This document shows, in pieces, positions 3,101 to 60,718 of a DNA stretch of 64,000 nucleotides. Source of the stretch: Prosopocoilus inquinatus (taxonomy: Eukaryota; Arthropoda; Insecta; Coleoptera; Lucanidae); the NCBI GenBank assembly GCA_036172665.1, contig CM069870.1:59954212-60018211 (forward strand), in the 5' to 3' direction. Every line of letters starts with the position of its first letter. Positions within the stretch are counted from its first letter, which is position 1. The notes beneath the pieces are model-generated. The model had not been told where the DNA came from. It worked only from the letters and a program-made list of their open reading frames with translations, and did no database searches. A program made the translations under genes and the position numbers.

Positions 3101-3107
3101 TCCCGTT

Positions 3108-3154
3108 CCTCTGTACAGCTGTTTCAGTCCTATTTGGGGCTTCGTCAGCAGAAG
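3108..3154 (-). ncRNA. Hammerhead ribozyme motif, family B (copy B2)
   Basis: On the minus strand the parts occur in hammerhead order. Helix I 5' strand CTTCTG (3154-3149), core CTGACGA (3148-3142), helix II AGCCC/GGACT around loop CAAATA, GAAA (3125-3122), self-complementary helix III ACAGCTGT (3122-3115), A at 3114 as the nucleotide 5' of the cleavage site, and helix I 3' strand CAGAGG (3113-3108). Helix I forms six pairs, one a G-T wobble. Helix II has one C-A mismatch. From memory, the CCCAAATAGGAC stretch resembles the Schistosoma satellite hammerhead. All invariant core bases of the CTGANGA...GAAA consensus are present. Activity is inferred, not shown. Confidence 0.72.
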
Positions 3155-3159
3155 CGATC

Positions 3160-6841: not shown

Positions 6842-7175
6842 CTAGTATCACAAACTAAAATAGTAAAGGAGACTGTGGTTTAAGAGATAATTGAAATTAA
6901 TCTTCGCCCACAATAATTTTTATATCCGTAGATACTTATTTCGACAGCTAAGCTAAGTTAAAAGCACTAAAAAATGTCTAAAAACAACCTAATCACACTG
7001 ACAACATTTTTATGATTTTGTCAGTGTGATTAGGTTGTTTTTAGACATTTTTTAGTGCTTTTAAGTTGGTAGCGTACTGAAGATAGCAGCTTAGCTGCCG
7101 AAATACGTATCTACGGATATAAAAATTATTGTGGGCGGAAGTTAGTTTCAATTAACTAGTATCACAAACTAAAAA
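6842..7175. repeat. Head-to-head foldback of Penelope-derived 3' sequence
   Basis: Arms at about 6888-7005 and 7023-7156 are reverse complements, meeting near 7000-7022. The right arm carries an intact family A hammerhead. The left arm lacks the roughly 22 bases spanning helix I and the CTGAAGA core. The outer part (CCCACAATAATTTTTATA and neighbours) recurs at 25890-25915 in the Penelope-like fragment. The structure is flanked by a 19-base direct repeat, CTAGTATCACAAACTAAAA, at 6842-6860 and 7157-7175, which may be a target duplication. Confidence 0.85.
7068..7119 (+). ncRNA. Hammerhead ribozyme motif, family A (copy A1)
   Basis: Helix I 5' strand CGTA (7073-7076), core CTGAAGA (7077-7083), helix II GCAGC/GCTGC around loop TTA (7086-7098), GAAA (7100-7103), self-complementary helix III ATACGTAT (7103-7110), C at 7111 as the nucleotide before the cleavage site, and helix I 3' strand TACG (7112-7115). 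The core fits CTGANGA...GAAA. Deviations: one extra T after the core and an A-C mismatch at the base of helix II. Helix III has no loop, so a dimeric form is the likely active shape. Hammerheads in Penelope-like elements are established; activity here is inferred. Confidence 0.75.
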
Positions 7176-22130: not shown

Positions 22131-23909
22131 TTAATAACTGAGCATTCTTAATTTAAGTTTCTTCTTGAATAATGAAGGAGACAGCTGAAGAAATCCTCTT
22201 GGCAGGTCGTTCACAACATCAACTATTTTGTATCTAAAACAACGCTTAAAGAATTCCAGTCGGTGACTGGGTATTGACAAAAGACCGCGATTTCTAATGT
22301 TGATGTTGTGAACATCCGTACGGAATCTAATCCGATTGTATAAATAAGGAGGGCACCTAAATGTTAAGATCTTATGATAAAACTGTGCGCAGTGTAAATA
22401 CCTCCTATTTTGAATACTTAACCAGCCCAGCTCAATAAGTTTATGAGAAATATGTTCTCTACGCTTAACACCACAGATCAATCTCATACAACTGTTCTGG
22501 ACTTTCTGGATTCTCGCAGCATCGAAACAGCTCAAGAATGGACCATAGACTGTGTCGCAAAAATTAAAATGCGACAGAACTAAAGAATCGCATAACATGC
22601 ATTTGACTTTACGTGATAATATGTGCGTGCCTGTTAACGAAAATTAGTTTTAAATTGGCGTAAGCCCTGCGTATGAGATTAGTGACATGTTTAGTGAACT
22701 TAAGCTCAGAATCCATATACAGACCCAAATTTTTACAGCACTCAGAAATCGGCAGTGCCATGTCAGCAGTACGCAAGTCCACGACGCTCGCCACATCAGC
22801 TCGCATACCTTTTCTTCCAAATAATGTAACTGAGGTTTTTTCCGCATTAAGTTGAAGAGCATGTTGCACTGAAACTTAGCTAGGCAGTTAAGATCCTCCG
22901 TAACTAAAGCGCATGCAGAGTTAACTTGATCGTTATCAAAAATATAATAAAGTTGCAAATCATCTGCATAAAGATGATATTTGCAATGTTTAATTACTTT
23001 ACACAATCGAGATGAGTATAAGCAGTATAAAAGAAGACCGAGGATAGAGCCCTGTGGTACACCTCGAGTGACTCGCAAGGGGTTAGAAACTTGACCGTGA
23101 CAGTAGACCCTCTGGGACCTGTCCATTAAGTAATTACGGAAAAAATTTAAAGCAATATCACCCAACCCATAAAATTTTAGTATAGAAAAGAGAATATCGT
23201 GATTAATGCGGTCGAATGCCTTGGAGTAATCGAGTAAAACTAGTATTACAAATTTATTACTGTCAATGGCTGCAACAATGTCATCTGTGATTGCTGTTAA
23301 AGCACTCGCACAACTATAATGCGGTCGAAACCCTGACTGAGTTTCAGGCAGTATGTTATGAGTTTCAAGATATTGTCGAAGTTGTGTATCTATAATTTTT
23401 TCCAAGATCTTAGACAAAACAGGCAAGATGCTGATGGGACAGACGTCACTCAGGGATTGCGGATTACTGATTTTTGGTAGAGGCAGGACTCTAGCCTCTT
23501 TCCAGCAATCAGGAAACAACCCATGAATAACACAAAAATTAATGAGATGCGTATAAATAGGTAAAAGAAACGGACAACTAAAATGTATCAAGTCAATATT
23601 CAAATTATCAGTGCCACAGGCTTTGCTAGAAAACTTAAGAAGTAGGTCCGATATAACGTTTTCAGTTACGGGATGAAAAGAAAAGTTATTTTCTAACTTT
23701 TCCGAGTTGTTAGTGTAAGACCGAATAGTATCGTCATAATTCGTATTGGATGTAACCATAGGGTTTGAGAAGTACTCATTTAAGTTATTCACATTACCAA
23801 TACCTTCAGGAATTACATTATTGCTACAATTATAAACACCAAATTTCTTTAACTGTTTCCAAACTTCACCAGATTTACTGTTCCTAATTTTGTGTTCAAG
23901 GAAATCCAA
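22131..23909 (-). pseudogene. LINE reverse transcriptase, frameshifted
   Basis: Reading from 23909 down, the protein contains VLPLPKISNPQSLSDVCPIS, then LLDYSKAFDRINHDIL (first catalytic Asp), RGVPQGSILG and the catalytic YADD in HLYADDLQLYY. The frame is lost near 22870, continues in another frame with LNAEKTSVTLFGRKG, then returns to the first frame near 22600 to end at 22131 with the C-terminal HRLEFFKRCFRYKIVDVVNDLP-type tail. GPLL is changed to GLLL after the PQGS motif. The enzyme would reverse-transcribe its own RNA at a nicked target; with two frameshifts it is inactive. Clade assignment (CR1/Jockey group) is from overall motif style only. Confidence 0.88.
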
Positions 23910-25875: not shown

Positions 25876-25918
25876 GATTGAAAATTAATCTCCGCCCACA
25901 ATAATTTTATATCCGTAG

Positions 25919-25953
25919 ATAGTCGGCAGCTAAGCTGCCATCTTCAGTACGCT
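25919..25953 (-). ncRNA. Decayed family A hammerhead (copy A3) in the Penelope-like element
   Basis: On the minus strand: helix I strand GCGTA, core CTGAAGA (25947-25941), helix II GGCAGC/GCTGCC with loop TTA (25939-25925). The following GAAATACGTATC seen in A1 is reduced to GACTATC. Helix I 3' strand TACGG is kept. Loss of the GAAA core and helix III should abolish cleavage. Its position in the element's 3' region, in the same orientation as the coding remnants, ties family A to Penelope-like elements. Confidence 0.75.
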
Positions 25954-26559
25954 ACCAATTTAAAAGCACTTAAAAGATCTAGAAACAACCTAATCATCCT
26001 AATAAAATCATAAAAATGTAAAAACTAACAACAATCTAATCATCCTAAAAGATATATATGTCTAAATGTAAGTAACTATAAATTATGTAAATATCTAAAA
26101 TTAACCGTCAGAAAACCCTTACAAATAAAAGCTAACCAAACAAACACGGAAATACGGAAATAAGTAGTCCAAAGACTCGAAAAAACTTCTTATTCTAACG
26201 AATAAATAAGTATATAATTCCCTGTTATTTGATACCTAAAAATCCTGAAAAATAAAATACAATATATATATTAAGTCTAAATCGTCAAAAAAAACAACCT
26301 ACAGATGAGAGCAAATCAACTCGTAAATTACGAGCACTTTAAGAAAATTTTATCTCGGAGAACCCTCTCCTTATCAAATATCCAGTGCAAATGCGCTTAA
26401 CTGTCTCTAACACCTCTTTAAATATGATTTAGGTTGCGAAATTTTGCGAATGATTTTTGACTTAAAAAGTACATCTAGGGCCAATTTTTGACTTAAGATC
26501 TAAAAAATAATAATGATAATAATCATATATATCTAAATATGAACCGTCAAATAACCTGT

Positions 26560-27240
26560 AAATTAGAGTAAATCAAATAATACGGAACTAGGTATTGGTC
26601 CATTGTCTAAATTCATTAAATTGTTTTTTTTTTTCGAATAAAAATACTTTCATAAGCATTCAATTCCCTTATTATTTGAAACTTCCTTAATGAGTTTTAA
26701 ATTATCCTTAATAATACTGTGTCCTGTATTGCAAATATGTTGTGCAACACTTGATTTCTCATACCTATTGTACCTGTAGTGACTTAAATGTTCTTTAGAA
26801 CGTGTTAATATATTTCTTTTTGTTTGTCCAATATATTTACTAGTACATTCGCTACACTTAATTTCATAAATTCCAGATTTCTGTTCCAACATCAACTTTA
26901 TCTTTCGGTTTTCCCAATAAATTCTTTATGATATTGTTAGTTGAAAACCCTAATTGTAAGTTTTGGGGTTTAAAAATATGTTTTAAACCTTTGGTGCAAA
27001 ACGGATCGAAAGATATTTTAACAAATTTTCCTAGAGATGAAGTTGCCGTTAAAGTGCTAGAATTTTGGACCTGTTTCCTATAGCTAATCTTCCTAATTAC
27101 ATTACCTACTAATTGGGGAATATAACCGTTATGAACAGCAACATTTTTAATATGTTTAACAATCCACGCAAAATTTCAAGGCATCAGAAAAAAATTCAAA
27201 GCATGAAAGAACACCTGGAAGATATTTTCCGACCTTCGAT
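26560..27240 (-). pseudogene. Penelope-like reverse transcriptase C-terminus and GIY-YIG endonuclease
   Basis: From about 27160 down a frame reads VKHIKNVAVHNGYIPQLVG, the end of the reverse transcriptase, and continues through a linker to the nuclease. The frame at 26895-26650 contains SGIYEIKC and KYIGQTKRN, the GIY and YIG halves of the active site, followed by R..EHL and SVAQHICNTGHSI, conserved in Penelope-like nucleases. After a shift near 26650 a C-terminal tail reads AYESIFIRK and NLDNGPIPS. The enzyme would nick target DNA for retrotransposition. The frameshift and missing N-terminus make it dead. Confidence 0.85.
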
Positions 27241-38259: not shown

Positions 38260-38279
38260 CATGAACTATGACCTAAGTA

Positions 38280-39590
38280 TGAAAGAAGAAGAAAGTGGTT
38301 AGAAACAGGAAAAGAGCAAGACCTAATTGAATACAGAAACATAAAGCAAGAAACCAACAAGTTTTTTAAAAAGAAAAAATCAAACTGGATATCAAACCAA
38401 ATGCAAGAACTAGAAAGAGACCACAAAGACAACAAGAAGCTATTCCAATATGTAATGAAAAACACTGGCACTAAGAAAGCTAGAGGGAAAATAAAAAACA
38501 GAGCCTGGAAAAGATATTTTACGAGATTGTACAACGTAGAAGAAATGGAAGAAGACACAGAAGAAGAAACTGAAACAAGAACCCACGAAGAAGACGCACC
38601 TACTAATGAAGAATTTATGAAGGTGATGAAACAACTCAAATCAAATAAAGCAGCAGGACCAGATGAAATTAATAATGAACTGATACAAAATGGAGGAGAA
38701 GAGCTACTAGAGCGAATTTATAAAGTAATTGTCAAAATCTGAACAGAAGAAAAGATGCCAACAGACTGGGAAAATGGACGAATAACACCAATTTTCAAAA
38801 AACGAGACCCAGCGGACTGCAATAACTACAGGGCAATCGTGTTACTAAATACCACGTACAAGATATTGACTTCAATAATAAGAAACCGCCTAAGTAAGTA
38901 CACTGAAGAAAAACTAGGTGAATATCAGCAAGGATTTAGAAGAGGAAGGTCCACAATTGACGCAATACATACGTTGACAAATTATTGAAAAATGTTACGA
39001 GCACGGTACTGAGCTATATATTCTTTTCATAGACTTTAAACAAGCCTTTGACAGTGTTTAAAAACACCAACTTGTAAAAGATATAGAAAATACCAAAAAA
39101 ATTAAGAAAGCACAAGTCGCGGAGAAACAGGACACATCGATATAAAGGTAGGCGTGAGACAAGGGGATAGTTTGTCGGCGGTGCTGTTCAATATTTCGCT
39201 AGAAGGAGCCATTAAAAGTTCAGGGCTGAATAGGACGATCATACAAAGCTCCACACAGATTATAGGATATTCAGACGACTTAGCACTTATAGCAAGAGAT
39301 AAACAAAACCTGAAAGAAGCAATAGAGTGTTTAGCAAGAGAAGCAGAGATCAGAGGTCTAAAAATCAACCAAGATAAAACAAAATATATGATAAGCTCTA
39401 GAAAGCAAAATAGTAAGGAAGATCTAAAAACAAGGATATATCATTTCCAGAAAGTTGAATACTTTAAATACTTATGTGTGACTGTAAACGGAAGAAACAA
39501 TAGATGTATAGAAATAGAAATTAAAGCTGGAAATAAAGTATACTGGAAATATCACATACTGTTGAAAGATACTAACCTCACTAAATTGAC
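38280..39590 (+). pseudogene. RTE reverse transcriptase, N-terminal and catalytic part
   Basis: Recognisable blocks in order: MKQLKSNKAAGPDEINNELI, DWENGRITPIFKK, NNYRAIVLLNTTYKIL, GEYQQGFRRGRSTIDAI, LFIDFKQAFDSV (first catalytic Asp), VRQGDSLSAVLFNISLE, and GYSDDLALIA, where the usual Y(A)DD box has Ser for Ala. Then NQDKTKYM and FQKVEYFKYL. Breaks include a TGA within the KIWTEEK-like motif near 38741, a frame change near 38985, and an in-frame stop after DSV near 39060. The protein stops matching near LLKDTNLTK (39590). Confidence 0.87.
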
Positions 39591-41651
39591 CTCACTATTT
39601 GCTCTTTCAAATTATTTTCAAGTTTTTAGGGATTCCAGCGAAGCTTCGACAATTTCTTGTTGTTTTGCTTAAATTTTTACCGTCTTCTGCGCGAACGTAG
39701 TTCAAGTTCAAGGATCATAAATTCAGCAATAGCGTACTAAGTTCTACTGACATTCTCTTTCAAATGGAATAACTTCTGAAGACACAGAACAATCTAGAAC
39801 CTCCGTAAAATTAACGAATCTTACGCTAAATATTTAATGCGTGATCAGTATCTTTCCTGATGGCACATGAAATAATCAAAGACATGAGTTTTTTTTTTAT
39901 AAATAGAAGAGATATACGCCTCCTGGAATCCTGGAACTCGCTATTCTCGTCAGATGGTCTAAGTGGGCACTAAATTCTTTAACAGCAACTTCGAATTAAA
40001 ACACTGGCCACACGTAATTTTAAGAAATTATTTAATTCACTGCGCACCAGTTACTGTTTACAAAACAAATTTTAACAACTTAATTTAATTTGAATAAAGT
40101 ATTAAAACGACATTAAACATGTTTGAACCCGCAAGTTTGAAAATACTGTTATCTCTGAAGCAGCAACGAACTTCAGCATTCTTGTCTCCGGAGGCTGTGA
40201 TGAGATTTATAAGAATTCAAAAATGGGCAGTTCATGGGGAGAACTTTGACTTGATTTGCTGCAGTTAATTAGGCGGTGTTAACAGATACGAGTCGAGGCA
40301 GGGGTATTTTGGTCGTCAAACACAGGTAAATTCCAAGAACGACAAAGGATAATAAAATTAGTTGCTTTCAGTGACTGATGTTAAAATTAAAATATAACGA
40401 GCTGGAATTCCCATCGGTCGGGCGCTATTAACAAAGGACCGGCATGGTACTGAGTCAAATGTATTAAGGGTGATTCTAATCGGTTTCGAATCGGAAATTT
40501 CAAATAAATATTACTTTTTGAACGGTGAAATGCATGCTACAAGAATGAAAATCTGAACTAAGAAACAATTTGGAAAATACAACAATTAAGATTTTACAGA
40601 ATTCTGCGAAAGCTGAGTTGCGAACCTATTAGGAAATTTTATAAATTTGCAAGGAATTTTCTAAGAATCTCAGCCAGATTGTCTTAAAAATACAATTTAA
40701 CAGCTAAATGTTACTAAATGCGTAACAATATTGATCACATGTTATTAACAAAAAGAAAGGTATAAAAATAAACAAACAAATAAAATAAAAGTAGAAAATG
40801 ACGAGAATGATTTCGGAATTACGCAATTTTCCGTTATTTGAAAACGCTACGATTCCATATAGAACAAGGAAAACGTCGAATTGAAAACGATACACGCATT
40901 TCCCATACACCTTTGTCTCTGCCAATATATGTATACAAACGTGTTCATGGATCGTTTGTTATGTTTACCGTGTCTCGGTACAGACAGAATCAGTTGGTTT
41001 CCAACTGCACATTGTCTCCGAAAATTGAAGTGGTCTGATTTCAAGCGTCAAGTGTTTACGCTTTAAAGTGGACACTGAAACGTGAAATTTCCAACTTTAC
41101 GCTTCACTCTGAAACATCACCGAGTGGAAATTGTTTTCCTAATTATTAATTACTCCTTTATTTTATAATTGTTAAACATTCAGGTGTCCCCGAACTACAC
41201 GAACTGGTCAAGTTAGGTTAAATCGTCTACAACTTGTGTCTTTAATTGAAACCACAAAGAGCAGACAAGAAAAGCAAAATTTTTGCTCTCGGCTAAATTT
41301 AAAAACATAAATTTTGTAAATATTTAAAGGTTTTAAATACATATTCTGTACGTGTTGCTTAAATAATGATTAAATGGTTAATCCCTATTTTAATGGTTTA
41401 TGAAAAATTCCGTAAGACAATGACGTAGTGACTCGATTGCAGATATTTTTACAGGATGGTTAGTTTGGGTCAAAATGTACAAGAAATAATATTTTTTCGT
41501 AATGTTCTACGTTTCGTAATGTTCTACGTTTCGTAATGTAATATTTTTTCCTAATGTTCAACATTTTCAAATAACAAAATAAATTTCGAAAATTAAGGTC
41601 AATCTGATCAATTTAAACTGTATTGCAAATTGCTAATAATAATATTTTTTT

Positions 41652-41818
41652 AAGTACATTCTTTTAATCTCGAACCGGATAGAAATATGATGGGAACACA
41701 CTCAACGTTTCGCTATAGATAGAAAAAGTATTTCACTCCTGATATAAATCTATAGCGAAACGTTCAGTGTATTCCCATCATATTTCTGTCCGGTTCGAGA
41801 TTAAAAAAAATTGTACTT
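41652..41818. mobile_element. Palindromic MITE with about 70-base arms
   Basis: The left arm 41652-41720 and right arm 41748-41818 are inverted, sharing AATCTCGAACCGGA, AGAAATATGATGGGAA and AACGTTTCGCTATAGAT with a few substitutions. Confidence 0.85.
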
Positions 41819-41904
41819 ACAATTTTTATCGGACAAAAATCAATTTCAATATTTTTTTTATTACTTTACTAACTTTAATAGTTTCTAATTTCCTGAGTCC
41901 TTAA

Positions 41905-42290
41905 GAATTGTTCCTGAGCAAGTAGGAGCTGTTCCTGAGCAATTAAAAGCTCAGAATATCAGTTTAGCGCTGAAGATGGTAACTTCGTTACCGAAATACG
42001 TATTCGCTTTCAGTGAATTAATGTGGTCGAGGGGTTTTCTCACTATTTATTTGGATTACAGCCACAGGTTTTGTGTTGCTTTGTGATTAATTAAAAGCTG
42101 TTCCTGAACAGTTTAAAACTGTTCTTGACCAATTAAAAGCTATGTCTGAGCAGTTAAAAGCTGTTCCTGAGCAGTTCAAACCCAATTTGAACAGTTCACA
42201 ATTGTTCCTGAGCGATTAGAAGCTGTTCCTGAGCAGATAAAAGCTGTTTCTGAACATTTAAAACCTATTCCTGAGCAGTAACAAGCTATT
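41905..42290 (+). repeat. 21-base minisatellite, interrupted by a hammerhead-bearing insert
   Basis: The unit approximates GTTCCTGAGCAGTTAAAAGCT and is repeated many times with substitutions (for example at 41909, 42088, 42150, 42225). About 136 bases of unrelated sequence (about 41952-42087) carrying hammerhead A2 split the array, with AATTAAAAGCT on both sides. Confidence 0.82.
41963..42009 (+). ncRNA. Hammerhead ribozyme motif, family A (copy A2)
   Basis: Helix I 5' strand AGCG (41966-41969), core CTGAAGA (41970-41976), helix II GGTAAC/GTTACC (41978-41983, 41987-41992) with loop TTC, GAAA (41993-41996), self-complementary helix III ATACGTAT (41996-42003), T at 42004 before the cleavage site, and helix I 3' strand CGCT (42005-42008). 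All stems pair perfectly. Relative to A1, both helix I and helix II have changed on both strands while pairing is kept. One extra T follows the core, as in A1. Confidence 0.8.
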
Positions 42291-42630
42291 TATGAATACT
42301 TAGAATTATGTTCCCAACTCAGTTTAAACCCAATTTGGAAAATGTTAGATGAGAGGAATAGGACCATTTCTGCTTGCTAACTGAGGAGAAAAACATGGAA
42401 ATGAGGAACTGGAAAACGATTACCACACAGGAACTGTGTAAATGTAAATGTCCAGCGGAAATAAACATGACCACTTACCCCATCACGTCAATGTTCAAGC
42501 GGACGCGAAGCAGCAAAAAAAATTCGAAGACGATCCCTCAACGGGGAAATTCGGTGCGAAAGTGAATCTTAATCCGAAGCTAATTGTAATTCGGTTGGCA
42601 CAATTCGTAATCACAACACTACCGAATAGC

Positions 42631-42855: not shown

Positions 42856-42955
42856 TTTAGGATGTCGCTGTTTTATCGATTTATGACTATTACATCGCAT
42901 TTCCGAATAAATTAGTCCAGTCATTTTTGGTTTCCAATGGGAATTTCGAGCTACG

Positions 42956-43003
42956 TTTCTGCTGAAGAAGCCCCAAATAAGGCTGAAACAGCTTTACAGA
43001 GGC
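42956..43003 (+). ncRNA. Hammerhead ribozyme motif, family B (copy B1)
   Basis: Helix I 5' strand TTTCTG (42956-42961), core CTGAAGA (42962-42968), helix II AGCC/GGCT (42969-42972, 42981-42984) with loop CCAAATAA, GAAA (42985-42988), helix III ACAGCTTT (42988-42995, one substitution from the self-complementary ACAGCTGT), A at 42996 before the cleavage site, and helix I 3' strand CAGAGG (42997-43002). Helix I forms six pairs, two of them G-T. Downstream sequence (CTGCTCGAGGTT.TCACTGCA) is shared with the palindrome at 414-557. Confidence 0.75.
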
Positions 43004-43231
43004 TGCTCGAGGTTTTCACTGCAATCAAAAACAATTTGCAACAAAAATTTTTCACAAATCTACCATTCAAGCAGCCAAAACAAAAATATATCACGAAACA
43101 TACACTGCAAACTCTGCGATGTTGATGCTTCGAGCTCTGGAATAAGAAAGCAAATCTGTCCAGTTGCTATGCAGATAAAACTTAGTGGTGCAAGCCAACA
43201 GCAACACGCACAACACACAGAGAAAAGGGTG

Positions 43232-43700
43232 GCCAAGAACAAAAATGAAAATATATAGAGGAGCAATTAGACCAGTAATAACATATGCAGCTGAAACAAC
43301 GTGTCTAACAAACAATGACGAAGAAAAACTGAGAATTCTAGAGAGGAGAATTTTAAGAAGGATCTTGGTACCGAAGAAAACACAAGGAGAACTCAGGCCT
43401 CTCATGAACCATGAGATAAATAAGTTAATGGACGGAGAAGACATCGTAAGGTACATTAAAGTACAGAGGCTAAGGTGGTTTGGACATATACAACGGAAGG
43501 AACAAGATAAGGTATTATGGAAGATAACGGACTGGAGACCAATGGAAGGTAGACCAAGAGGAAGGCCCAAAATCAGATGGCAAGACCAGGTAATGGAAGA
43601 CATACGAAAGATGGGAATTATTAACTGGAGGACGAGAGTCAAGGACAGACAAGAATGGAGGAAACTAATAGAAAATGTGAAAACACACCATAAGTTGTAG
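43232..43700 (+). pseudogene. RTE reverse transcriptase, C-terminal part
   Basis: The frame contains MKIYRGAIRPVITYAAET, then EEKLRILERRILRRILVPKK, the zinc-knuckle-like RLRWFGHIQRK block and RPRGRPKIRWQDQV, ending KTHHKL with a stop at 43698-43700. This is the usual C-terminal half of RTE proteins and continues directly from the part ending near 39590. This piece has no internal stop. Confidence 0.9.
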
Positions 43701-46114: not shown

Positions 46115-48475
46115 TGCATTTTTTAATGATACCAATAAAAAAGTCACCCTAACACGACCTACTATGAGTCTAAGAAGATCGTGAACACATATTAGTTATA
46201 CCGTGATTTTATATTAACATGAAACATTGCAGTTCATGTTACTATAGCAACTAATTCCAATTTCTAAAATATCGTTGCATGATGGGCGTCGTTAAATTTG
46301 TCCATTTTATTTTGGAACATCTGTCAGGCGATGATAACGAAAATTTTTGAAAATTTGTTGCGATGTTCGTTTTGAATTAAAGAATTTCTGTTTTCCTTAT
46401 GTTTTAAGCTCACTTATTTCACACAAAAATATACTTATCTAATATAATTGAAAGAGTAGTTATTATTTTGTAGTACAAGTATATTGAAAGCACTAATAAT
46501 AGAACAGATTCATGAAAGCTGTCATCTCATGTTCTATTTTAAAAAGGACACTTCCACTTACAAATTGTAAACGTTGCTATGGATTCTCTGATTCGTACGT
46601 AATCACAATGTTTCATGTTAAAATAAATTCACGAATTCATGGAGTGGAATTCATGGAGTGAAATAAGTAAATTGGGAGAGGACAAATTCTTCACATAAGC
46701 GTTTCTTTAAATCCCTATTTAAGACAGATCTAAAAGGATTTTTTTTAAGGTAAACATTACTAATATATTTAGCGACCTGACTGCGGTAACCGACGCACAG
46801 TGTTGCCGAGTACTAATAAAAAATTGGACAAAATTATTTAATTTTTTTTTTCATTCAAAATATTTGTATTACGTTGAAATATACACGAAAAATATAAAAA
46901 TTCGAAAAGTACTTTTTCGTTTTAGGAACGATAAGACAATACATAAAATGTGAAGAAAAAGTCTGGTAAAGTAAATATTTCCGAAATATTTTCTTTTTGC
47001 AAAAATGCTCGGACACAAAAGTTATTACTATAAATCTACATTTCAGTTCATTTATTTGTACAGTGGCGTACCATTAGGGTACTAAAACAACTTTATTTTT
47101 TTTAATGGAAACGTCTACTTTTATTACGAATTCCAAGCGGGCATATTTTTCTACGTACAACTACAAAAAAAATTATAGTCACATAAGAATCTTTTTGAAA
47201 CAAATGTTCAAGTATTAATAAAGAAACAAAACAAATAGATGAAGTATTTTGAATGCAGATTATCACATCAACGCTCATTATCATGAAATGTGAGAAAATT
47301 TTCACTGTCTCTTCAAAGGAAATTATTAAAGATAAATGCAGGTGCACTGTGACTAACAAAATATTGGACTAAAATGTCAATGTCAATAACAAAATAACAA
47401 AAATGCATCGTTTCACTGTTTAATAGTGAACAGGCCATCATTTTATATTTATTTAATTTACTTCATTCAAAATTAAATATTTATTAAAACACTAGGTAAA
47501 TAAAAATGAAAATGGAGATTTATTATGAAAAAAGAAATTTATATTGTACCCCAATTATTGCTGAAAGTAAATAACCTGAAATGTAAGAATCGAGTTCGAG
47601 CGTTCTTGTAAAAACAAAATAGTTTAGCAAATATTTAGGGTGTTCCAGACTTTTATCCTCCTATAATACAATTTATTTTACACTCCTTATAGAAAGTAGC
47701 AGGAAAAGGATAAAATACTGCTGCAACTTCCAATTCCTTAATGTGTATGTATTTATTTCACATGTTTGATCGGAGCATTTTTATCAATTCTTCTTCTGTA
47801 ATGATGACTCCTCTGTTGAAAGAAATGTTTTTTTCTTTTCTTAAATTTGACACAATTACTAAAATTTTCTAGTTTGTTTAAATTCTTTAAAATTCATTTT
47901 TCATTGATTTTTTGAAAAATATGATTTTCATGTCAAGAAAATTCCACGAAGTGACCTACAACGAATAATAAGTAAAAAGTCAGAGTGGCGCAAAAACGCG
48001 CAAGTTTTTAAGTTTTATTATGAAAACACAAAGTGTATAGAACATTTAAACATAGGTCTCCAACAGGTGATATTCGGAATTACTAAACAAAAAGTTTAAT
48101 CAAAAAGATATAGTAGGTGTAAAATATTTGTATGATTTGTACGATTATTTCTAAACTATTAAACACAAAAAGATAATAATAGGTGAAACGATTAATTAAA
48201 CATACCTTCCATATTTGATTACATAGTTCAGTTTTGAACAAACTCACTTCAGAAGGAAAATATAATTAACAATGTTGCGATAAATTTATGGCGAGTATAA
48301 TGACATAACAATTAACATGACACTTTGTATATGGACTTACTCGATAATTTCAAAAGGAATTTCCCCTCTTTTTACGATAAATAATAAATTAACTCCTGAT
48401 CTACTATTTATTAAGTTTCTTTTCGTCTACCTTCATTTTAACATTTTGATTTTTGCCGTGTCTTGGCCACAGTGT
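46115..48475. other. No recognised feature
   Basis: AT-rich. 46110-46165 continues the repeat above and resembles the region after 54665 (CCCTAACA.G.CCTACT..GAGTCTAA). The frame at 47102-47359 minus resembles no known family. Confidence 0.4.
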
Positions 48476-48479
48476 GCGA

Positions 48480-49441
48480 CGCTACTGTCCATTACTAAAC
48501 CCAGATTCTCGACTTTTGTTAAAAAAGGAATCTAAACATCATTAATACAAATGTGAATGATATTTGAGATATTATCACAGGATTTCTTTTCACCAAAAAG
48601 TTTTAGGATTATTTGGGATTAAGTTTCAGAAAATGATCCTAAGTGTAATCGAGAACAAAGCCCCAAGATAGATGTTGATTTTCATAGTCCGTCAGCAGGT
48701 TCAAAGAAATAGCAGAGCTGAGTATCGTCCGCGTAAATATGAGCGACACAATGTTTTACAACAAACAGAAATTTAAAGATATAACAACAAAATAAGATAG
48801 GTCCAACAACAGAGCCTTGTAGTACTCCTTGCAAAACCGCAAAAGGACAGGAACGTTGGTTACCAATAGTAACAGTTTGCTCACGTTCAAAGAGATATGA
48901 CTTAATTAAATTACCAGCATTCTTACTTAAGCCAACATGCAGTAAAATTAAATGTAGTACGTCATGCTGTACTGTATCATATGCCTTGGTGAAATCTAAT
49001 AAGGTAAGTACCGTGATAAGTCCTTTATGAGTCGCTTGAAGTATATCATCAGTTACTTTCACAGCAAAGTAGTCACACAACTATGGTCTTTCCTAAATCC
49101 TGATTGAGTATTTGGTATAATACCAACAAAATTAAGATAATCTGTAAGTTATTCTATGATAATACTCTTGAAAAGTTTAGGTAAAGACGGTAATAAACTA
49201 ATTGATCGTAGATCTGTTATATTACTTGGATCTTTTACTTTTGGCACAGGACAGACTAAGGCATGCTTCCAGCAATCAGGAACGATACTATCAACAATAC
49301 AAGAATTAATTTTGTGAGTAAGATAATGGGCAACTGATTTTATCATGATTGTATTAATTCCATCTATGCCAGTTGCTGTAGGCTTAAATCGACGTAAGAG
49401 AGTGTCCACAGTAACAGTTTTAAAAGCAAAATTATACTCAA
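48480..49441 (-). pseudogene. LINE reverse transcriptase (CR1/Jockey-like), decayed
   Basis: Reading down from 49441: FKPTATGIDGINTIMIKSV, PDCWKHALVCPVPKVKDPSN, LRSISLLPSLPKLFKSI, a TAG stop, TQSGFRKDHSCVTTLL, a frameshift near 49080, LLDFTKAYDTVQHDVL (first catalytic Asp), QGSVVGPILF, and IYADDTQLCYFF with the catalytic YADD. After another shift, IPFLTKVENLGLVMDSS (about 48530-48485) is the usual downstream block. It belongs to the same broad group as the element at 22-24 kb but is a different copy with clear divergence. Confidence 0.85.
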
Positions 49442-49444
49442 ATA

Positions 49445-50223
49445 TTTTTTTTCGTTATTGTACGCTAATTGCGCAACTGTTGGGAATGATTATTATTTTG
49501 AGTAAGTAAATTATTAATGAAAAAATGTTTATTTGATTAGGTTCAACTAAATGAGGAGGTATTTTAACAGACTTGCATTTTATTAATACCTAAATACTCC
49601 CTCCGTCTCAAATTATGGTATACATTTCTATAAAGATGTTTTGAATATGAATGGTTATACATATAAAATAATAAGTTGTTAATGATGGATATTTATCAAA
49701 ATATAGGGCTTTTATTGATTAATATATGACTTTGCACGAATCTTGTGCTATTTTAATGTTATCCTTAATTTCATTACTGTCAAAATGTATTGATAATGAT
49801 TAAATGACAACCGTTGTGTTTAGGTAGAGAAAATTATAAATCCAGAAAATAGCATTTTTCAAAGGAAACGCTTGATGTCAAGCGATATCTAAACGTTGAG
49901 TGTTAATCGAACAAGAGTTGACTTCAATAATAAAACACAACACTATTGTGACTAGAGAACAATTTCGCAGTAAAGATAATTTGCAGATATCCATTTTATG
50001 AAATCAATATGCAGTTAAAACACAACTTATTACTCCTATAAAATATTATTGATAAATAAAACAAACTCTGATTACATTAATTTTGAATTTCAGACAAGAA
50101 AAGTAAATCCAATGTGAGTTTCGTATTCCTTAATTTGGGACAAAAATAACATCCGCACTGTATACCATAGTTTGAGACAGAGGAAGTAATTTAAATTTTT
50201 CCATGGACTTTTGAGATCACTAA
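49445..50223. other. No recognised feature
   Basis: AT-rich sequence. A phrase near 49600 (CTCCCTCCGTCTCAAATTATG) and its approximate complement near 50165-50185 (TACCATAGTTTGAGACAGAGG) suggest that 49597-50190 may be another long MITE with ends like CTCCCTCCGTCTCAAA. Confidence 0.5.
49597..50188. mobile_element. Probable Tc1/mariner-type MITE with CTCCCTCCGTCTCAAA ends
   Basis: The left end reads CTCCCTCCGTCTCAAATTAT then GGTATAC. The right end read in reverse gives CTTCCTCTGTCTCAAACTAT then GGTATAC, about 23 of 27 matching. The interior is AT-rich with no transposase. CTCCCTCCGTC termini with TA duplications are typical of Stowaway-like Tc1/mariner MITEs. Confidence 0.7.
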
Positions 50224-55019: not shown

Positions 55020-56857
55020 CAGGGTTGGGATAAAGTATGGATCCATCGAAATATCTCGGAAGTGGAATTGACGATTTTAATGAAATTTTGTATATGCAGA
55101 TAGAAACAAATGGCGCATGCGATGGGCTAACTTTTGTTTCCATTAAACTTCCGGTTTAGCCGGAAACGGCACCAAATTTTTTATTTTAAATAGAACACAC
55201 TGTATAATTTTACGTATTCTGATACTCCTCTGCCTTCTGCATCCATTAATATCAGGTTTCTTACCTTTATCTCTAGTCTCTAGCCGAAAAGATAGCTTTT
55301 TAATTATTGGCTCTAAACTATATTAATTTATTTCTTTTTTGTTTATTTTTTTGTATTTGCAATGGTTTTTATGTATTATTAAAGAGCAAAAGAACTACAT
55401 TTAGTTATTTTAAGTGTTCAAAATGTTGGCCATTTACTTCTTGGCAATAAGCAAGTCTATGAACAAATCCCTGAGACACATTTGCGAAAACTTCCCTACG
55501 AATTAAATTACATTCATCCAATATCCTTTGCCTCAATTCTTGCAAATTATTTGGACGTCTCACGTAAACAGCTGATTTTAAATATCCCCATAGAAAAAAA
55601 TCCATAAGATTAAGATCTGGGGAGCGAGCGGGCCATTCAATAAACCCTTTACGACCAATCCATCGATTGGGAAATGTTACATTCAAAAAATCCCTAACTC
55701 GTCTATTATAGTGCGGAGGCGCTCCATCTTGCTGAAACCAAAGATTTTGAGGAAGCAGACCATTTTCTTGAAGAGCAGGAATAATTTCATTGTTTAAAAG
55801 TTCCAAATACTTCGCCCCGGTCAGTGTACCATTAATAAAAAATGGACCAATAACCCTATTCCTTACAATTCCAGCCCACACATTCAACTTTTCTGGGTAT
55901 TGAGTATGTGCTTCATGTAATAAGTTACGATTGTCGACAAACCAATATCGTATAAATTATGGCGATTTACAGAACCATTTAAACAAAAGTTGCCTCGTCC
56001 GAAAATACCAAATTAGTTGCAAAATGCTCGTCGCTATTACAGATTTCCATCATTCTTTCGCAAAATTCTACTCGACGATCGTAATCATCTTCTGACAGTT
56101 CTTGGATCAGGTGTACTTTATAAGGGTGGTATTTTTCGCGTTTCAATACTTTGGCTACAGAACGACGACTTATCCCATGGTGTAATGCAAGAAATGTGAT
56201 AGAAGTTTGAGGTGACTCTTCCAGTTCTGTGGCAATATTTTCACTAACAATTGCGTTAGAAGCGGTCTTTGGTCTTTCACTTTTTGGCAAATTTTTCACT
56301 GTCCCATTCAAATTGTAGCGTCTAAGTGTTTTACCAACAAACGAGCGCGTTATAGGATTTCGTTCTGGGTGTAAACCGTTAAATAAGTCGCAAACTTCTT
56401 GATGAGTTCTAACACGATCACCAAAACCGATCATCATTATTGATACTGACAGATGTTGCTGACAATAAAATAACTTATAAAACATATAAAATAGCGACAT
56501 CTTAAAATTTTTCTAAAATAAAATAACTGTCAATTCCACCGGCTACTAGACAAAGAGGTATTTTTTGAGAAAACTAAAAGGTTATCTTTTTGGCTAAAGA
56601 CTAGAGATAAAGGTAAGAAATCTGATGTTAATGGATGCAGAAGGCAGAGGAGTATCAAAATACGTAAAATTATACAGAGTGTTCTATTTAAAATAAAAAA
56701 GTTGGTGCCGTTTCCGGCTAAACCGGAAGCTTAACGAAAACAAAAATCAGCCCCTCGCATGCCCCATTTATTTCTATCTGCATGTACAAAATTTCATTAA
56801 AATCGGCAATTCCACTTCCGAGATATTTCGATGGATCCATACTTTATCCCAACCCTA
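55020..56857 (-). mobile_element. Rosa-like (DD41D) Tc1/mariner transposon with about 285-base inverted repeats
   Basis: Terminal inverted repeats span about 55020-55305 and 56570-56857. They begin CAGGGTTGGGATAAAGTATG and stay closely matched through CGGTTTAGCCGGAAACGGC and the inner GAGATAAAGGTAAG region. TA precedes the left end (55018-55019); the right flank is changed. The transposase lies between on the minus strand. Long terminal repeats are unusual for mariner relatives and help define the family. Confidence 0.88.
55405..56500 (-). pseudogene. DD41D transposase with frameshifts
   Basis: The N-terminal frame (56500-55979) has helix-turn-helix-like stretches (SITFLALHHGISRRSVAKVL) and ends just after VFSDEATF, the first catalytic Asp. 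The frame is lost twice between about 55985 and 55890. It resumes as NVWAGIVRNRVIGPFF, with WFQQDGAPPH (second Asp) and WPARSPDLNLMDFFLWG (third Asp), ending at 55405. Forty-one residues separate the second and third Asp, the spacing that defines the rosa (DD41D) family. The enzyme would cut at the terminal repeats and join at TA. The frameshifts make this copy inactive. Confidence 0.87.
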
Positions 56858-58019: not shown

Positions 58020-60718
58020 GCTGCTGGAAAAGTTTCTGGAAACGGTATGAAAAAACGCATATGAAATTTGGTAAATGGTTATCATTGTTTTTCGAAGTAT
58101 TCGCTTTGACGTCAATACACTTTTGCATACGCTCGAACCAATTTCTAAAGTACGTTTTCCACACTAAAGATGGTACCTCAGAAACCAGTGTCCGAAATGT
58201 TTCAACCGCTGCACATAGGGGTATTGGACCCAAAAAGTTGGCCAAAATTATTTTTTCATATTTTCGCATTTATTCGGTGACAATAAAATAGTTTAGGCTG
58301 AAATTTGTTATCTGTTACCGAATACCGGGCACACACTTTAATTATGCACCACATGAATTTCTTTCAATTCCTGCCCCACATTGAAATTCCTGTTGAAAAA
58401 GCAACATGAATATCCGTTCGCCGCAAGACGTCTCTTTAATTTCCGAGATTATACAGAATGTTCATCGGGAGCCGGTACACTAGCAAATTTCATTATTCGC
58501 ATTTTTATGAAGTAACTTAAATTAGAAGTTTCAAGACTTTCCTGCTCGAATTTAGGGCATCATCAGAAAAACAATTGACTATCAGGTTTACGAGATTTTC
58601 CGTTGTTTTCAAATTCTTTAAACAGAACATTACATTTTTTTATCATCGTATCATTTAAAAAAAGTTGAAAACAATCGAAAATCTCGGAAACTTGATATTT
58701 ATTCATTTATTTCTCCTCAGGTACCATTAATTCGAGCAGGAAAAGTATTGAAATTCCTCTAATTTAGACTACCTACTGAAATTTCAAATAAAAAAAAGTT
58801 AGCTATTTTAGCCATTTTCTGTGAGTACCAAGATTTAGTTACTAAATATAAAATTGAATTATATTCCCAAAGATGATGATATTTTAGGAACGTAATCAAT
58901 TTAATATCCTGAACGCGATGCGATGATAAAATACCTAACATTCCATTTAAATAGAAACAATAACAATAAAAAATCTGAAAAACTTGATAATCATTTGTTT
59001 TTCCGAAAGCACCATTAAATCAAATCGAGGAGGAAAGATCCTGCAACTTTACTACTAATTTAAGTTACTTTGTAAAAATTCAAATAAGAAAGTTAGCTAT
59101 AGTAGCGGATTTTCATGAACACCTGTACATAACAATTTGTGTACGAATTCTTTCTTTTGTTCTTCAGGATATATATAATTTTTAACTATGTCGTTTTGTA
59201 AAAAGTTTTTTGCAAAGTTTTTTGGTACCACTATTGCAAGTCACAGCATCAAAAAAGTAATTGTCATAAATTTATAGGCAAATTTCGGCAGCCGAAGTCT
59301 TCAGATATTTAAAGTATCTTACCTACTGTAAAACATAACAGAAAAAAATCGACCCGGAAACGCCCTGACATATAAGAAAACTCTTTCGATATACACTAAT
59401 AACCGAAAATTCAACAACATACCGTTAATCTGAAATATGTTAAATACTGACAATAGCATTTAAAAAATAATGGTTGATATGAACACTACTTACTTGGCTG
59501 AACATCTTCCGTTACAAAAATCACAGCATATAGCTTCAAAGAAAAATTAGAAACAGTTTGAATTTAATTATTTTTTGAATTAGGCATGTACGTTTAACAC
59601 AACCGACTATCAAGGTGTTTTGATCCCTTTGATGGTATTTTGTTCATCTACCCGAGGAAAAAAATAAGTTTACCCTCTTGATCCCTAAGTATTGTTCTAT
59701 CTTAGGTAATAGTTATTGTAGTCAAATTCACGATTTTGTGTCATTCGACTTTCGGCCAGCTTTTCGGCACAAATACCCCTATGTGCGCTGCTTCAGCCGA
59801 CAAAAATCGCACACCACGCATTTTATTTTTGATATTTGGAAACAAAAAGAAATCATTAAGTGATAAATCAGTTGAATATGGACAATGAGTCATTAATTCA
59901 ACATTTTTTGTTGGACAAAAAATCAACAGTTTAGTTTGACGGGCTGAGTGAGAGCTGGCGTTGTCATGATGGAGAATAATTCGTCGATTTCGATTGTTTC
60001 TTCTTATTTGATCGATGACTTCCGGCAAACAAATTGTAGTATACCAATCAACATTCACGGTTTTTCTATCTTCTAAAGCCACGGTTGCTACATGTCCAGT
60101 TAAGCCAAAGAAACAAGCAATCATTTGTTTCGCAGCACAGCGTGAACGGACAACTTTTGTTGGTTTTGGTTCATTTTGAAATACCCAAACGGTAGATTGT
60201 TGTTTACTTTCTGGCTCGTACGAATAGATCCACGTTTCGTCACCAATAACGATGTTATAAACTAAATTTGAACGACCTCCATTGAATTTCTTGAGCATTT
60301 CTTCGCACCATTTGACACGACCCTGCTTTTGCGCTTCTGTTAAATTGTGTGGGATCCAACGACTGCAAAGCTTTCGTACGTCCAAATGATCATGCAAAAT
60401 CTGGTGTATTGCTTTCATGTCAATGGGTAAGGATGCTTGAATCTCACGGTATGTCACATGTCGATCTCGCTCAAGCATTTCACGCACAGCATCTACATTA
60501 GTGGCAACAACAGATGTTGATGGACGACCTTCACGAAATTCGTCACTGAGAGAGGTACGTCCACGCTGGAATTCGACAAACCAATTATAAACACTGCTCT
60601 TTGATGGTGCTTCATCTCCAAAAGCCAGATGAAACCGATCGAGGCATTGTTTCGGCGTTAGACCACATTTCAAATCGTAAAAAATCATGGCACGAAAATT
60701 TTCACGCGAGATTTCCAT
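58020..60718 (-). pseudogene. Mariner transposase, split by an insertion
   Basis: The main frame starts at ATG 60718 (MEISRENFRAMIFYDLKCGL) and carries the paired helix-turn-helix DNA-binding region, WVEF-like SVYNWFVEFQRGR, WIPHNLTEAQKQGRVKWCEE, the first Asp in IVIGDETWIYSYEPESKQQS, the second in IILHHDNASSHSA and the third in LSLNDFFLF. It is broken after MRGVRFLSAEA (59791). The C-terminus continues from 58206 with VETFRTLVSEVPSLVWKTYF and RNWFERMQKCIDV. Joined across the insert the frame is exact. SPDL is changed to STDL and the C-terminus after KCIDV is degenerate, so it may not have been active at insertion. Confidence 0.92.
58212..59785. mobile_element. Non-autonomous DNA transposon (possibly Transib-like) inside the mariner
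   Basis: The termini CACATAGGGGTATTGGACCC and the complement of the right end (CACATAGGGGTATTTGTGCC) match over about 35 bases, continuing AAAAG.TGGCC.AAA. A 5-base duplication CGCTG flanks it (58207-58211, 59786-59790). The interior has no transposase but carries repeated sub-blocks (CGAGCAGGAAA and AAGTTACTT-type phrases near 58540, 58730, 59025). A CAC-start terminus and a 5-base G/C-ended duplication are features of Transib; that assignment is inference. Confidence 0.82.

Follow-up and report, generated by a model that had tools for sequence, protein, structure and literature searches.

The DNA stretch considered here comes from the beetle Prosopocoilus inquinatus (contig CM069870.1, positions 59,954,212 to 60,018,211) and is 64,000 nucleotides long; we refer to all of it as the window. 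It contains three related copies of a hammerhead motif, namely A2, which is our subject, A1 and the broken copy C, together with two copies of a second hammerhead-like family (family B) and the degraded coding remnant of a Penelope-like element (PLE). Minimal type I hammerheads of PLEs have reportedly been described by Cervera and De la Pena in 2014 and by Lunse et al. in 2017. As far as sequence can tell, A2 is a real conserved RNA fold of an already known retrotransposon hammerhead type and a candidate ribozyme. We consider A2 likely to be a minimal type I hammerhead motif of the PLE kind, left over from the 3′-terminal region of a PLE family that has diverged from the one comprising A1, C and the copies at L069 and L070/L078, two further places in the same genome.

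The first-pass annotation of this locus had described A2 as a hammerhead with exact cores, fully paired stems and two-sided changes relative to A1, and this is borne out (Table 1), although helix III, while paired, is only 2 bp long. The helix III sequence of A2 is palindromic (AUACGUAU, AAUACGUAUU). The type I core (CUGANGA, GAAA and UH, with A15.1-U16.1) is exact in 5 of the six copies that we aligned, A2 among them, the other being C, which lacks most of GAAA. PLE-type hammerheads have a helix III that is absent or very short, with a palindromic loop; A2 fits this trait with its 2 bp and ACGU, at the longer end of the PLE range given in reviews. Helix II does not follow A9 directly, as it does in a standard type I hammerhead, since one extra U intervenes. 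The suggestion that this nucleotide marks a subfamily appears reasonable, as it is found in all six copies of the A2/A1 lineage and is absent from family B.

In a gapless alignment, A2 and A1 differ in 17 of 47 columns, 11 of them paired, and 5 of the 12 pairs (3 in helix I and 2 in helix II) have changed on both sides. With changes scattered over random sites, this has a probability of 3.5e-5; with the changed columns kept fixed and filled with random letters, the value is 0.022. The earlier statement that pairing is kept while both strands change thus holds for A2, but not throughout A1, in which one pair is broken (A-C, next to the core); moreover, helix II covaries in only 2 of its 6 pairs, 3 being identical. 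Two-sided change likewise affects 5 of the 12 pairs in a three-copy alignment, a level attained by 4 of 500 shuffles. With six copies it affects 6 of the 12, and 91.4% of the 70 cells are paired, as against 12.9–41.4% when the register is slid. None of 500 shuffles reached the observed value on four of five covariation measures; the fifth, the number of pair types, was reached by 149 of the 500. Compensatory change was seen in helices I and II, while helix III shows no two-sided change and hence draws no support from variation. These alignments support selection on the hammerhead fold, as the first-pass annotation had proposed.

The additional copies were found with R1, a covariance model built from A2, A1 and C, which recovers these three by construction. 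In the window, it also matched the left arm of A1 (18.3 bits, E 0.0035) and seven sites at E 0.37 or worse. Sampled stretches of the same genome, 296,100 bases in total, were searched as well: 21 loci (202,000 bases), L078 (4,100 bases; taken as the neighbour of one match and containing the same copy as L070) and nine spaced stretches. Below E 0.01, R1 matched L070 (67.8 bits), L069 (52.2 bits) and L067 (36.9 bits) in the 21 loci, whereas the nine spaced stretches gave no match at E up to 1. Weaker matches in L077 (E 0.013), L068 (E 0.016), which turned out to be family B, and L071 (E 0.91) were omitted from the alignment. L070/L078 and L069 belong to the family of A1, and L067 is a diverged copy. 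The core is intact in L069, with one broken pair in each helix, and in L067, with broken pairs in helices I and II; L070 and A2 keep the whole core and every pair, one of them as G-U in L070.

To gauge chance, we searched for the pattern CTGANGA...GAAATACGTATH, whose TACGTAT part was derived from A1 and A2 themselves, and found it twice in the window, at 7077 (A1) and 41970 (A2), and never in 100 shuffles. A strict three-helix descriptor (helix II of at least 4 bp, helix III of at least 2 bp with free sequence, helix I of at least 4 bp) matched only A2 in the window, and 1 of 200 dinucleotide-shuffled windows held any match. What excludes A1 is its basal A-C mismatch in helix II; both motifs satisfy a looser descriptor, run without a shuffle control. 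The bare core is not significant, with 40 overlapping matches in the window against a shuffle mean of 20.5 and 5 of 100 shuffles as high. A loose pattern also picked out 55 viral stretches, which we took as chance because none of them passes the helix descriptor with an A2-type helix III and R1 gives them at most 19 bits. Stricter patterns found nothing in the viral contigs or in the prokaryote genome contigs. Alignments with PLE proteins revealed no related viral contig; one 21-residue match in a bacterial bin was given no weight.

Table 1. Hammerhead motifs and associated features in the window
Feature	Coordinates	Strand	Evidence or remarks
A2 hammerhead motif, 47 nt	41964..42010	+	read directly from the sequence; pattern and descriptor searches; alignment
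A2 helix I, AGCG/CGCT	41966-41969/42005-42008	+	4 bp
A2 core, CTGAAGA	41970-41976	+	exact hammerhead core
A2 extra T between A9 and helix II	41977	+	creates ATG 41976-41978; common to 6 of 6 aligned copies
A2 helix II, GGTAAC/GTTACC, loop TTC	41978-41983/41987-41992	+	6 bp
A2 GAAA	41993-41996	+	exact
A2 helix III, loop ACGT	41996-41997/42002-42003	+	2 bp; palindromic loop, ACGU in RNA
A2 H17, predicted cleavage after base T42004	42004	+	position from hammerhead consensus
A2 downstream flank, TGTGG and CCACAG	42022..42067	+	spacing much like L069 and L067; suggestive
A1 hammerhead motif	7071..7117	+	A-C mismatch at base of helix II; pattern search and alignment
A1 foldback element (head-to-head pair of PLE 3′ ends)	6861..7155	+	arms 6885-7007 and 7015-7157
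19-bp direct repeat, left	6842..6860	+	probable target-site duplication
19-bp direct repeat, right	7156..7174	+	probable target-site duplication
Copy C (dead)	25912..25953	-	intact helix II; most of GAAA lost to a 5-nt deletion in GAAA/helix III; sequence and alignment
PLE 3′ stretch, endonuclease to hammerhead	25890..26947	-	co-linear with L078:3007-4099, 88% over 1102 bp
Degraded C-terminal part of PLE protein, including GIY-YIG endonuclease	26668..27160	-	tblastn best E 7e-10; Pfam GIY-YIG E 7e-4
Family B copy	42955-43003	+	pattern
Family B copy	3107-3155	-	pattern

Members of the A1/C family are attached to PLE coding remnants at two loci. A comparison of 240 PLE proteins (120 listed of 5340 and 120 listed of 1067) with the window gave matches, at E up to 0.01, in a single place on the minus strand, 26608-27160, mainly within the remnant given in Table 1, where the Pfam GIY-YIG match (20.3 bits) lies under the curated cutoff of 22.6. 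Copy C is found ~700 bp downstream of this remnant on the same strand. The same order occurs in L078, with the endonuclease followed by an intact hammerhead at L078:4030-4076. Because copy C and L078 both lie downstream of the PLE endonuclease in a co-linear stretch of 88% identity, the A1/C family is, by its sequence context, the 3′ region of a PLE, and its motif has the terminal location known for such hammerheads. L078 holds a second PLE copy that runs the other way, with its reverse transcriptase at 2716-1765 and its endonuclease at 1251-988; L078:988-3240 comprises two head-to-head PLE copies, of which the minus-strand one retains reverse-transcriptase blocks. A1 looks like a short form of such a head-to-head pair, with two 3′ ends meeting at the centre; the 5′ half of the hammerhead is missing from its left arm, and the direct repeat that flanks the element is the only exact 19-mer repeat at 200–400 bp spacing in the window. 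A 5′ copy of the 3′ region of the A1/C family was not found. Nor was a tandem pair of motifs seen: A2 and A1 are single, and L078 has one hammerhead beside its two opposed PLE copies. A tandem-repeat search of the window listed none of 150–450 bp that includes A1, A2 or C, though arrays less than ~70% alike could escape.

For A2 itself, the link to a PLE would come from its likeness to this family and from its downstream flank. TGTGG and CCACAG follow the predicted cleavage site by 17 and 57 bases in A2, 18 and 52 in L069 and 20 and 60 in L067. In A1, TGTGG lies 18 bases after the site and the right arm stops before CCACAG, which the left arm carries; in L070, CCACAG lies at 52 and ATGG replaces TGTGG. 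From the sequence, it seems probable that A2 represents the 3′ terminus of a PLE family that has diverged. The 133 bp surrounding A2 recur nowhere in the sampled 296 kb, the hammerhead excepted.

Several observations weigh against this assignment, or against A2 being active. The likeness of the A2 flank to the other copies is weak (shuffle P 0.031 for A1, 0.20 for L070, 0.26 for L067 and 0.01 for L069). No PLE coding remnant was detected near A2, either with the 240 listed PLE proteins or with Pfam on read-through frames (those near A1 and A2 gave one match, E 0.27, and none useful), and A2 has no tandem partner in the window. Rfam 15 placed no family at its gathering score anywhere in the window. 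The lack of an Rfam hammerhead match was half of the refutation test set by the first-pass annotation, and no such match appeared around A2 or A1 at E up to 5; the search had no published minimal PLE hammerhead as positive control, and the result is that this form is unseen by Rfam 15. Predicted folding is also unfavourable. The hammerhead fold of A2 reaches -3.8 kcal/mol, compared with -10.9 kcal/mol for the best fold of the 55 nt, and in the ensemble predicted when 8 and 4 nt of flank are included, the probability is ~0.015 for helix I and 0.003 for helix III. Helix I rises to 0.36–0.80 only with 0–5 nt of flank and is near zero with at least 10, while helix III stays at or below 0.01 throughout. 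The z scores against dinucleotide shuffles (-1.15 and -0.98 for A2, -0.65 and -2.16 for A1) give no strong stability signal. Finally, PLE hammerheads usually lack helix III, and 2 bp with a tetraloop is the form of invertebrate retrozymes, most of which cleave as monomers, according to passages of PMC7229834 and PMC7761336; helix III by itself is therefore not diagnostic of PLEs.

In these predictions helix II of A2 is stable and alternative structures compete with helices I and III, so that a hammerhead folding well alone, with a 2-bp helix III, is not supported; on its own, A2 is predicted to fold poorly. The picture changes for two copies, since the helix III hairpin is predicted at +4.7 kcal/mol in a monomer, compared with -6.5 kcal/mol for a two-copy duplex of 8 bp and -8.3 kcal/mol for the 10 bp possible in A2. 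In an RNA with at least two copies, the palindromic helix III sequences of two motifs would pair into a shared helix III of 8–10 bp. Such a double hammerhead would cleave after U16.1-H17 (after U42004), leaving a 2′,3′-cyclic phosphate and a 5′-OH, and would thereby trim multimeric PLE transcripts to units. Action as a dimer through a palindromic helix III is known for PLE and amphibian hammerheads, as described in parts of PMC6466107, PMC7761336 and PMC7229834, the first of which gives as requirements that the helix III loop be palindromic and the motifs be arranged in tandem. By analogy, A2 may need a dimer for cleavage, and the lone A2 is probably a remnant that would do little on its own.

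The published accounts, in the portions relevant here, locate minimal hammerheads of type I, frequently devoid of a true helix III, in PLE pseudo-long terminal repeats and at scattered sites in animal genomes, where they may cleave as dimers (PMC7229834, PMC6155905, PMC7761336, PMC6466107, PMC6431247, PMC11167929, PMC3088659). Our copies resemble them in the type I core, the near-absent helix III, the PLE association of the A1/C family and the scattering of lone copies in non-coding DNA. Compared through reviews, they differ by the tetraloop-capped 2-bp helix III, usually lacking in PLE hammerheads, and perhaps by the extra U between A9 and helix II; also, no tandem pair is seen here and A1 lies in a head-to-head foldback.

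Could A2, and perhaps A1, derive instead from non-LTR retrozymes (LTR, long terminal repeat), short elements that are not autonomous, carry type I hammerheads and propagate as circular RNAs? The passages of PMC7229834 on these elements describe a type I hammerhead with a 2-bp helix III and a palindromic tetraloop, as in the axolotl HHR_Amex2 and invertebrate retrozymes, and mention retrozyme-like repeats from insects; low GC and the size of the A1 element (~295 bp, with long direct repeats) would also agree. We nevertheless judge this origin quite improbable: the tandem 170–400 bp monomers that the same source attributes to retrozymes are not seen here, no helix I–II loop contact was identified by eye, and at two loci a PLE endonuclease is linked to the A1/C family. 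Still less credit is due to a chance match, or to conservation at the coding or DNA level without RNA function, which we regard as very improbable indeed. It would account for the silence of Rfam and for the open frame in which A2 lies, with an ATG opening 36 codons, recalling an Anolis PLE whose open reading frame starts at stem II (text of PMC11167929). Against it stand the shuffle controls and the covariation; besides, the frame is open upstream too, the ATG is ATA in A1 and is followed by an in-frame stop in C, and a matching peptide occurs in none of the 240 listed PLE proteins within the first 100 residues.

A vanished function is a far more serious contender, and we see the chances for and against it as about evenly balanced. 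The copies would then be dead fossils of PLE ends, with two-sided changes dating from active parents, a view that overlaps with the PLE-end reading and departs from it only on whether A2 is active today. The loss of most of GAAA in C, the broken pair in each helix of L069 and the lack of half the motif in the left arm of A1 are in line with decay. The full A1 element is predicted to form a hairpin of -165.5 kcal/mol that hides the motif, its 3′ half pairing with the other arm, and A2 is a lone copy. On the other side, A2 and L070 have kept all pairs and the whole core.

The extra T deserves a closer examination, as it completes an ATG. In the Anolis PLE (PAc), as given in the text of PMC11167929, the open reading frame begins at the start of stem II, C3 and G8 precede the start codon, and the cut lies 26 bp downstream. 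The geometry of A2 is alike, with H17 26 nt past the ATG, and by analogy the extra T may supply the U of an Anolis-like AUG. Unlike in PAc, the A2 frame ends 36 codons from the ATG with no PLE protein after it, and the motif of the A1/C family lies downstream of the open reading frame. Moreover, the frame that contains A2 (41889-42083) is also open upstream of the ATG, which thus need not be a start, and in C it stops after three codons. A hammerhead overlapping a PLE start codon was considered and is not supported: in the first 100 residues of the 240 listed PLE proteins, KYV[FSYLCW] never occurs, EIR[IM] occurs in 1 and [RG]NTY in 2, while the less stringent GNV, meant for hammerheads of other forms, occurs in 8. 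A paper cited in PMC6155905 reportedly describes an extra nucleotide in the core of a viroid hammerhead.

Family B, which lacks the extra T, is represented by 10 copies found by pattern: the two in the window and others in L058, L068, L069, L071, L074 (two), L077 and L081. BLAST revealed further copies missed by the pattern, for example in L064, L082 and L087. Its layout comprises a helix I of up to 7 bp, a helix II of 5 bp and a helix III of 2 bp with the palindromic loop AGCT; 6 of the 10 copies, none of them in the window, pass the looser descriptor. The pattern demanded the core, so that core conservation in this family proves nothing. Over 14 proposed pairs, 92.9% are paired with no two-sided change, and shuffles do equally well; in the absence of covariation, the fold rests on core and stems. 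The family occurs in dispersed foldback elements (in L069 the arms are 80 nt and 100% complementary).

Other repeats lie around A2. Just upstream, an inverted repeat at 41659-41809 (62-nt arms, 94%) is a dispersed element in its own right and has relatives in L059, L076 and L077. A 21-bp repeat at 41890-41951 and 42084-42300, whose frame reads heptads like AVPEQLK, flanks A2 as if interrupted by its insert. Further out, 38272-39669, with reverse-transcriptase blocks, and 43179-43697 read as one open reading frame of the long interspersed nuclear element (LINE) type, apparently split by an insert of ~3.6 kb that contains A2. This LINE was rejected as the host of A2 because no part of it adjoins A2. 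The reverse transcriptases at 22653-23909, 38272-39669 and 48400-49643 match LINE-labelled proteins, not the PLE set. On the minus strand, 59741-60718 holds a Mariner-type transposase open reading frame and 55405-56500 a split Tc1-like transposase.

Taken further, one may imagine a PLE hammerhead subfamily in which the U is obligatory (A9-U-G being AUG) and which is active only as a double hammerhead through the 10-nt palindrome; foldback in head-to-head copies such as A1 would silence the ribozyme, leaving multimeric or tandem transcripts as the only ones to be cut. We think this scenario unlikely as it stands. What the window does add is two hammerhead lineages, recognised purely from reading the sequence and not reported here by Rfam 15, with mutual covariation and one of them attached to a PLE. 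Given that intact, broken and foldback copies exist side by side in one genome, they offer a convenient setting for asking whether tandem order or the extra core nucleotide controls cleavage.
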